From: a virus
DNA length: 22,651 bases
Reading direction: 5' to 3' (one strand)
IMG/VR virus record: IMGVR_UViG_3300043430_000171
Coordinates: 1-22,651 of that record
This document shows positions 13,072 through 22,651 of this stretch, one piece after another. The notes below the pieces were generated by a model. It searched no databases. It saw only the letters and a list, made by a program, of their open reading frames with translations, and was not told where the DNA came from. Position 1 is the first letter of the stretch. Each line of letters begins with the position of its first letter. The position numbers and the translations under genes were made by a program.

Positions 13072-13452
13072 TTATTTTGCAGCTTTTTTGTTATTGGCCT
13101 GTGCTTCGGCTTCTGCTTTGGCCTGTGCTTCGGCTTCTGCTTTGGCCTGTGCTTCGGCTTCTGCTTTGGCCTGTGCTTCGGCTTCTGCTTTGGCCTGTGC
13201 TTCGGCTTCTGCTTTGGCCTGTGCTTCGGCTTCTTCGTCAATGACTACGCCCGGTAAAATATTGCCATTAATATCGTGCGTGATAGGCGGCAAAACGTTC
13301 GTTGCGTCTTTTGTAGGTTCGGCAACTTTTAAATCATCAATTGCACAGCGCGCAATTTCATCGTCTACGTCATGCACACCCTTGATAAACTCCACAACAA
13401 GAATACCCAGCAACGCATATCGAAACGCTTGATTAACTTTTATCAAAGCCAT
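13072..13452 (-). CDS. Head-region protein with C-terminal EAQAKAEA tandem repeats
   Basis: This 126-aa protein lies between the capsid and gp6 genes. Its N-terminal half (ALIKVNQAFRYALLGILVVE, then FIKGVHDVDDEIARCAIDD) resembles short modules of small Mu-like head-region proteins, but I cannot name a family. From about residue 74 it consists of about six copies of an eight-residue E/A/Q/K repeat encoded by perfect 24-bp repeats, ending NNKKAAK. The repeat should form a long charged helix. It is transcribed after the capsid gene but separated from it by a terminator. The ATG at 13452 has GAG about 9 nt upstream. A head-associated role is inferred from place only. Confidence 0.75.
   Translation of the reverse strand: MALIKVNQAFRYALLGILVVEFIKGVHDVDDEIARCAIDDLKVAEPTKDATNVLPPITHDINGNILPGVVIDEEAEAQAKAEAEAQAKAEAEAQAKAEAEAQAKAEAEAQAKAEAEAQANNKKAAK
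13096..13234. repeat. 24-bp tandem repeat, about 5.8 copies
   Basis: The unit begins GGCCTGTGCTTCGGCTTCTG on the plus strand and recurs without change at 13096, 13120, 13144, 13168, 13192 and 13216, the last copy breaking off after 19 bases. It is in frame and codes for EAQAKAEA on the minus strand. Perfect identity at the third codon positions points to recent expansion by slippage or unequal recombination. Confidence 0.95.
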
Positions 13453-21301: not shown

Positions 21302-21703
21302 TTACGCAGCCTGCAAAAATTCTTGTGGAGATGACTGAGAATCTAAATACACATCAACATTCAAAACGAAATCAACCCAGGTATACGCGCACTCATAAAG
21401 CCTGGATACCGCAGGGTGGGCGATATTCATTGCATCACCAACAGCCCTAAACGAATACCCACAAACACACGCCAACCAAAGCACTTTAAAAAACTCAGGG
21501 CGATGAACTTTAAGCCTCGCCATAGCGCGATCAACTTCCATCGCATCATCATCAGTGATATGCGCAACCTCATAGCCGTCATCATCACGCGCCGATTGCA
21601 TAATCATTTGCATTGCACTACGCGCCCGTAAATTAAAGCCAGAATCCTGCTTTAACCAAACGCCCCACTCTTGCAATAAAACCGCTGTATTACGCTCGCC
21701 CAT
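21302..21703 (-). CDS. Phage antitermination protein, Q family
   Basis: I use the ATG at 21703 (133 aa, MGERNTAVLLQEWGVWLKQD) because AGGG lies 8 nt upstream; an ATG at 21718 is also possible. ITDDDAMEVDRAMARLKVHR then PEFFKVLWLACVCGYSFRAV and NIAHPAVSRLYECAYTWVDF show the pattern of the small Q-type antiterminators, with a helix-turn-helix in the second half. Such proteins act at the late promoter and make RNA polymerase pass terminators. The gene lies just before a double terminator and the lysis genes, in the same place as Q of lambda. Confidence 0.85.
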   Translation of the reverse strand: MGERNTAVLLQEWGVWLKQDSGFNLRARSAMQMIMQSARDDDGYEVAHITDDDAMEVDRAMARLKVHRPEFFKVLWLACVCGYSFRAVGDAMNIAHPAVSRLYECAYTWVDFVLNVDVYLDSQSSPQEFLQAA

Positions 21704-21738
21704 AACACTCGCCCTCATTATTTTTGCCCGCAGAGAGT

Positions 21739-21766: not shown

Positions 21767-21802
21767 TTTTTTAACCAAAAGTAATAATAAAACAAAACAC
21801 GT

Positions 21803-21825
21803 TTTCCCGTTTTACACCCCGTAAT
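21803..21825 (+). repeat. Outer inverted repeat, left arm (21 of 23 bp)
   Basis: TTTCCCGTTTTAC (21803-21815) is perfectly mirrored at 22046-22058, and CCCCGT (21817-21822) at 22039-22044. The distance from here to the inner repeat is 41 nt when measured from the perfect 13-bp part (21816-21856). Confidence 0.9.
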
Positions 21826-21856
21826 CTTAAAGCTTGTAAGTTATTGATATTTATTA

Positions 21857-21883
21857 ATTTCCCGTAATCCCGTAATCCCGTTT
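21857..21883 (+). repeat. Inner inverted repeat, left arm (27 bp)
   Basis: Core CCCGTAATCCCGTAATCCCG at 21861-21880 with AT flanks; its exact reverse complement lies at 21978-22004. The core itself is a 9-bp direct repeat of CCCGTAAT. Confidence 0.97.
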
Positions 21884-21977
21884 ATATAAATCTCGCGTAG
21901 AAAAAAATAATTAATAAAAAATCCCGAATCACGTTAAGTTACACGCACACATATATGCGCACGCGAGGCAAAACGTA

Positions 21978-22004
21978 AAACGGGATTACGGGATTACGGG
22001 AAAT
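21978..22004 (-). repeat. Inner inverted repeat, right arm (27 bp)
   Basis: Core CGGGATTACGGGATTACGGG at 21981-22000, exact reverse complement of 21857-21883 over 27 bp. The arms are 94 bases apart. Confidence 0.97.
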
Positions 22005-22035
22005 CTAATGTTTTCAGCGGGTTACAAAAACACTA

Positions 22036-22058
22036 ATCACGGGGAGTAAAACGGGAAA
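22036..22058 (-). repeat. Outer inverted repeat, right arm (21 of 23 bp)
   Basis: GTAAAACGGGAAA (22046-22058) mirrors 21803-21815. The distance to the inner arm is again 41 nt (22005-22045), with unrelated sequence over most of that distance. Confidence 0.9.
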
Positions 22059-22065
22059 GCGGGAT

Positions 22066-22651
22066 TTATGCGGCTTTTTGATCATAAATATACTCCACTT
22101 TGTTCAAAATCTCACTATGACCCTCAACACAAGCACCAAGCCATTGCTCTTGCGTTTTATCATGCGGGCACAAACCAACCACAAAAAACGTAGCTTTCCC
22201 TATAAATGTTTTGTAATTGAAATTTAAATCTTTCCGTTTTTTAACTTTACTGCCAATAAACGAAGCGAAATTCTTTGAACCTAAAGAGTGTTCATTATTG
22301 ATTTTGCACCACGCCGAAAAATATTTAAACAAATCTGAAACGCGAATTGAACCAAATGGCACAGGCATATTATTATGCTCAAGCGCGCCACGCTCCCACT
22401 CATTATAAAAAACCTCCCAAACAGCGCGACCATGCTCAATCAAACGCTCTTTAGCCTCAGTCATTGGTGGTTCAGTATGCTCATCGAATGGGTAAGACTC
22501 ATCATCGTTTTGCATTTTAGTGTCAAGCAGGAATTGATAAAATGCAGCTGCACCACCCTCTTTTAAATCAGCATCTACACCACGCTGCAATTCTTCGTAG
22601 AGCTTTGTTTCTGGCCATATCACCAAAAATCGTCTATCGCTTGGCTCAACA
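22066..22651 (-). CDS. D5/P4-like primase-helicase, C-terminal part (5' end outside window)
   Basis: The frame is open from the right edge to the stop at 22066, about 194 codons. Its first residues read VEPSDRRFLVIWP; the (D)RRF-x-V motif is typical of the arginine-finger end of the SF3 helicase domain in DUF5906/D5-type phage proteins, and shows that the TTG at 22626 is not the true start. The rest (AAFYQFLLD, HTEPPMTEAKERLIEHGRAV, DLFKYFSAWC) fits the helical C-terminus of that family. Such proteins unwind DNA and often prime it at the phage origin. It lies directly next to the repeat array, which supports a replication role for both. Confidence 0.82.
   Translation of the reverse strand, partial: VEPSDRRFLVIWPETKLYEELQRGVDADLKEGGAAAFYQFLLDTKMQNDDESYPFDEHTEPPMTEAKERLIEHGRAVWEVFYNEWERGALEHNNMPVPFGSIRVSDLFKYFSAWCKINNEHSLGSKNFASFIGSKVKKRKDLNFNYKTFIGKATFFVVGLCPHDKTQEQWLGACVEGHSEILNKVEYIYDQKAA

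Follow-up and report, generated by a model that had tools for sequence, protein, structure and literature searches.

A nested inverted-repeat array behind a tailed-phage primase-helicase gene as a candidate replication origin with two mirror-image halves

The window considered here, that is, the whole stretch of DNA that was analyzed, is the IMG/VR virus record IMGVR_UViG_3300043430_000171 (22,651 bp). It carries the late region of a tailed phage on its minus strand, with a tail module and portal, terminase, HNH, lysozyme and holin genes, followed by the gene of a Q-like antitermination protein (21302-21718, minus strand; PF06530, PHROG 79). At its other end it cuts through a primase-helicase gene (22066-22650, minus strand; PHROG 4762/1156/2249, DNA primase), of which the C-terminal 194 residues remain, covering the end of the superfamily 3 (SF3)/DUF5906 helicase and a C-terminal winged-helix domain. 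The gap between these two genes is occupied by an array of nested inverted repeats, a candidate replication origin that starts directly at the stop codon of the primase-helicase gene, immediately 3′ of the putative initiator, with the Q-like gene as a neighbor outside it.

Two pairs of inverted repeats share a common center at 21930.5, as an earlier note on this DNA had described. The inner arms (21857-21883, plus strand, and 21978-22004, minus strand), separated by 94 nt, are perfect inverted copies over 27 bp, and each forms an inner iteron block of three 8-bp repeats with the unit TAATCCCG (window word CCCGTAAT). When the region was shuffled 300 times, the longest reverse-complement match averaged 8.9 and never exceeded 20, whereas the real sequence reaches 27. 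The outer arms (21803-21825 and 22036-22058) match at 21 of 23 positions, also as first described, and can be extended to 32 nt (21794-21825 and 22036-22067) at 84% match. The outer block distal to the primase gene (plus strand) has repeat cores at 21805 and 21817, and the proximal one (minus strand) at 22040, 22052 and 22060. In the 22.65-kb record CCCGTAATCCCG is found only at the array, twice per strand and never reversed.

The spacers between inner and outer blocks were correctly described as equal in length and poorly matched to each other (11 of 31 positions), but their true length is 31 nt (21826-21856 and 22005-22035) and not 41 nt. The primase-distal spacer holds a perfect integration host factor (IHF) consensus, TATCAATAACTTA (WATCAANNNNTTR), at 21837-21849 on the minus strand, and the proximal one a degenerate IHF-like site with two mismatches that is better preserved at the same place in relatives. 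Within the spacer that carries the IHF site, TCAATAACTTA is identical in five aligned members of the window clade. When the loci are compared, IHF-like sites with at most one mismatch are enriched on both sides, occurring in 36 of 60 right spacers (4.8 expected) and in 17 of 60 left spacers (1.9 expected).

The 94-nt middle had been taken as mostly AT-rich, which holds for 21884-21930 (77% AT) but not for 21931-21977 (53% AT, close to the window mean of 52%). The first of these halves includes an AT-rich stretch (21884-21919) that is a candidate unwinding element, with a conserved TCTCGCGTAGA (TCTACGCGAGA in gene orientation) at 21891-21901. Beside the proximal inner block, at a position conserved in relatives, lies a GC-containing tract (21943-21968) in which purines and pyrimidines largely alternate. 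This asymmetry recurs among the arrays, the alternating tract standing by the primase-proximal inner block and the AT-rich stretch by the other. The median alternating run is 15, against 7 in shuffles, and it falls in the first half in 53 of 54 cases; the AT-rich stretch ends in a YGCGAG element, found in that half in 37 of 59 cases and in the other half in 3 (2.2 expected). The extra off-centre copy of ATCCCGAATC mentioned in the earlier note is present at about 21921-21930; it is not conserved in the closest relatives.

Conservation was assessed by wider locus scans comprising 167 loci in 62 groups, then 124 further loci, giving 66 groups in all (80% identity). For each locus the score was that of the highest-scoring repeated 8-mer no more than 560 bp from the primase-helicase stop, with a cut-off of 10. 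The score is 10-26 in 61 of the first 62 groups, compared with 5-13 (median 6) in 244 control windows from the same loci and 5-9 in shuffles, and it reaches at least 10 directly 3′ of the stop codon in 62 of the 66 groups. Two loci, L286 and L288, fall just under the cut-off (9 and 8) and are counted as weak; in two others the array is displaced behind one inserted gene (L185:3847-4310; L066:6089-6540). The product of this inserted gene is a separate protein that looks like the C-terminal winged-helix domain of the helicase itself and that might act as a copy-number or origin regulator. The annotated Pseudomonas, Moraxella, Stenotrophomonas and Halomonas phages with related primases all carry an array after the gene, and the two viral contigs nearest by primase protein (74% and 65% identical) have an identically placed array with this nested layout. 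Array and spacing are thus both found in related phages, where the earlier note had named their absence as the finding that would refute the origin reading.

Two array forms are common, the fully nested form of the window, in which the left repeats all point one way and the right ones all the other, and a second form in which, on either side, the outer repeat closest to the inner block has the reverse orientation. Outer blocks are mirrored in orientation in 42 of the 49 groups where both were recognized, and in 30 of these 49 the inner-outer distance on the left differs from that on the right by no more than 1 bp. When right-hand distances are shuffled among groups, 9.9 agreements are expected and none of 2000 permutations equals the observed number. 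Because of this mirrored orientation and matching distance, the proposal of a geometry that is preserved without being copied holds true across clades, and the symmetrical layout, first regarded as unusual, turns out to be the rule in these phage primase-helicase arrays. The same comparison bears on the idea that the array is a packaging (pac or cos) or partition site, which would suit Stenotrophomonas phage S1, where the array lies near the terminase genes. In the window, however, Q, holin, lysozyme and other genes stand between the array and the terminase genes, and across relatives it is the primase-helicase and not the terminase that the array follows, so that such a function is scarcely credible.

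Geometry is kept while the iteron word itself changes between clades. For example, the word is CCCGTAA(T) in a Cellvibrio mixtus J3-8 prophage (L005) and TGCCGTYT in L006, which has the same geometry as the window, and the arrays of annotated phages include TGTGTTGGG, GTGCAGGGT, GTGAAGGGT, TGTGCGGG and TCAGACAG; orientation and inner-outer spacing stay mirrored. It is because of this turnover that an exact scan of viral contigs with the window word matched just two unrelated contigs. In one seemingly unrelated 9.2-kb contig (IMGVR_UViG_3300027576_000011, L008:5957-6038), CCCGTAATCCCGTAATCCCG faces TTACGGGATTACGGG with the same word as the window.

Comparison of loci also links the word to the C-terminus of the helicase. 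The primase modules beside the array vary (PriCT_2 with Toprim, Prim-Pol, zinc ribbon with Toprim, or split genes), the DUF5906 helicase and its C-terminus persist and the kind of array stays constant, and therefore the array follows the helicase and its C-terminus. Loci L054/L180 and L111 are 92-99% identical in helicase DNA, but identity drops to 51-63% over the stretch that begins with the C-terminal domain and ends with the array; in the next several hundred bases it is again mostly 86-99%. With this exchange the word changes from GTGCAGGGT to TACAGGGT. Within 300 bp on either side of the stop codon, L054 and L111 show a sharp-edged replacement, although the phages are otherwise near-identical. 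Joint exchange also agrees with loci L182 and L188, which carry the L111 word, and with L185, which shares that word and has a C-terminus like that of L111; L347 compared with the S1 group is a milder case. These alignments show that the C-terminal winged-helix domain and the array can be replaced jointly, as a single unit. More generally, words are shared in 85-90% of cases at 75-85% C-terminal identity and in about 1% below 50%.

The block exchange also bears on the operator with looped repressor assemblies that the earlier note had considered equally plausible. On this view a phage regulator, either a repressor or the neighboring Q-like protein, would bind the repeats, loop the DNA and control late transcription. 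Looped operators can also have symmetrical repeats with IHF-like sites, and in the window a Q-like gene does lie directly next to the array. Yet array and helicase C-terminus can be exchanged jointly between flanks that remain the same, the array of phage S1 is followed by terminase genes with no annotated Q gene, and a promoter and terminator scan of the region gave no promoter-like excess above chance and no terminator. A role in late-gene control is consequently much weaker than the origin reading and quite unlikely. A search of the region against Rfam returned no RNA family.

Taken as a phage replication origin, the array very probably consists of two mirror-image half-origins bound by the C-terminus of the primase-helicase. 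The earlier note had already proposed an origin whose iterons are bound by a replication protein, and with the primase C-terminus as the binding partner this reading has the best support, given the association of array and helicase over 66 groups, the kept geometry, the block exchange and the half-site spacing shared with the origins of phage P4 and of phage-inducible chromosomal islands (PICIs) described below. The two half-origins would face each other across a melting region, and in each a spacer that usually holds an IHF-like bend site separates the outer block from an inner one built of 8-bp iterons. The iterons would be recognized by the C-terminal winged-helix domain of the primase-helicase encoded immediately upstream, and IHF or an equivalent protein would bend each spacer and join outer to inner block. 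The AAA+/SF3 helicase domains could then form two opposed hexamers that melt the AT-rich part of the center, from which replication would start, possibly in both directions. An AlphaFold model covering the last 445 residues of a relative (mean predicted local distance difference test score, pLDDT, 93.5) resembles the C-terminus of NrS-1 polymerase, poxvirus D5/E5 and SaPI5 PriRep1.

Several observations weigh against this interpretation. The cumulative GC skew, an origin check proposed beforehand, shows no turn at the array in four complete relatives, its extremes lying near the record ends or elsewhere, although the test is weakened because gene orientation confounds skew. The identity of the word also tracks overall divergence and not the C-terminus alone. 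The Moraxella phages Mcat1 and Mcat4 have different C-terminal domains and the same word, so that one word can be read by different domains and there is no strict pairing of domain and word. Six Pseudomonas loci (L143, L144, L096, L139, L151 and L169) have different words in their inner and outer blocks, the inner ones carrying TGTGTAAGG and the outer ones still largely TGTGTTGGG; these mosaic arrays may have been caught midway in a change of word that begins with the inner blocks. Finally, the primase gene is truncated in the window and its 194-residue piece has no DUF5906 match, so that the helicase domain is deduced from full-length relatives, 74% and 65% identical, which have PriCT_2, Toprim and a D5/DUF5906 helicase with a winged-helix domain.

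Among known systems, the array is best read as belonging to the 'pri-rep-ori' kind of PICIs, Staphylococcus aureus pathogenicity islands (SaPIs) and P4, here in complete tailed phages. PICI origins contain two sets of iterons flanking an AT-rich region, and in EcCICFT073 rep and ori, tested for plasmid maintenance, form a sufficient replicon (PMC6092414). The window likewise has inverted blocks flanking a center of which one half is 77% AT. Read with the word TCTACC, the EcCICFT073 origin shows spacings of 9, 46, 22, 11 and 9 plus their mirror image; it is thus like the phage arrays in its mirror-image halves and in the spacing of about 46 bp from pair to single, followed by 22, 11 and 9 bp. 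It differs in having pairs outside and triples inside, whereas in phage arrays the inner block has its closely spaced pair or triple facing the center, and in its word, which is CCCGTAAT in the window. PICIs are moreover satellites that lack a full set of virion genes, while the window, with its terminase, portal and tail genes, belongs to a tailed phage.

In SaPI Rep and in Cch2 of the staphylococcal cassette chromosome mec (SCCmec), the origin lies directly 3′ of the Rep gene, its iterons are bound by the Rep C-terminus, and binding by two hexamers has been proposed (PMC7581432). The likeness to the window lies in a self-loading initiator helicase whose C-terminus recognizes iterons just downstream of its own gene. 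These systems are satellites and cassettes of Gram-positive bacteria, and the Cch2 origin has three 5-nt iterons only. The closest solved helicase is the C-terminal region of the NrS-1 primase-polymerase (PDB 6k9c, 6k9e, 6lrb; sequence E 5e-26, fold TM ~0.65), for which the recognition site is an 8-nt sequence in two copies and no such array is described (PMC7102993).

P4 alpha resembles the phage initiators as a primase-helicase with DUF5906 and a C-terminal Pox_D5 winged-helix domain of solved structure (PDB 1ka8). The annotated ori repeats of P4 (NC_001609) are spaced 10, 11, 22 (inverted), 43 and 10, which equals one half of the Pseudomonas-phage arrays, and crr, directly behind alpha, contains two copies of a 14/18/43/9 pattern. 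However, ori and crr are about 4.7 kb apart, crr consists of two direct 120-bp repeats and ori has no adjacent mirror partner; the type-1 iteron word of P4 is GGTGAACA and not the window word, and the window clade uses an 8-12-43-8-8 spacing variant.

The place of crr, 3′ of alpha and separate from ori, is what might favor an autoregulatory or copy-control site, at which the primase-helicase would limit its own expression or the copy number while the true origin lies elsewhere. The array is nevertheless downstream of the primase-helicase gene and not at its promoter, and the PICI origin at the same place forms a sufficient replicon with rep (PMC6092414). Four complete relatives give no sign of a second array, because their iteron words match outside the array at only 0-3 places, and the window record, itself a fragment, contains a single one. 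These facts make a purely regulatory role very unlikely.

The spacings can be summarized in a half-site template, which fits the P4 and PICI origins at 6 of 6 positions (permutation p 0.018 and 0.002, respectively). Template and variant together fit 39 of 66 phage groups at 5 or more of 6 positions, against 3.6% in within-locus permutations. Since the template was drawn up after the P4 and Pseudomonas arrays had been seen, this fit is suggestive and not a blind test. The near relatives L099 and L020 match the 8-12-43-8-8 variant at 6 of 6 positions; the window matches it at 3 of 6 and the P4 template at 2 of 6, a poor fit because its distal outer block is degenerate.

It is conceivable, with the chances somewhat short of even, that a grammar of spacing and not of sequence defines these origins. 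Tailed phages, PICIs and P4 would use the same half-module with unrelated words; it would begin with an iteron pair, continue after about 43-46 bp with one inverted iteron and end with steps of 22, 11 and 9-10 bp. Two modules would face each other in phages with the pairs turned inward and in PICIs with the triples turned inward, and P4 ori and crr would be separated halves, while iteron and winged-helix domain, matched like lock and key, would evolve or be swapped inside a frame that stays fixed.

Searches limited to the open literature turned up no account of such an array in these phages. If the arrays act as proposed, they would make it possible to locate replication origins independently of sequence in temperate phages with DUF5906-type primase-helicases, a large class in which origins are rarely annotated. 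One origin design would link PICIs, P4 and ordinary phages, the phage loci would be a counter-example to the published view that restricts this organization to PICIs, and a testable explanation would be at hand for the split ori and crr of P4. The natural exchanges of C-terminal domain and array would also be ready pairs for studying joint changes of initiator and origin specificity.

Two minor observations concern other genes. In Halomonas phage H4907 (L367:18982-19362) a gene annotated as 'replicative helicase' lies amid head genes and is probably misannotated. In the window, a small protein with a long EAQAKAEA repeat, coiled-coil-like, is encoded at 13072-13452 on the minus strand, beside the major capsid protein gene.
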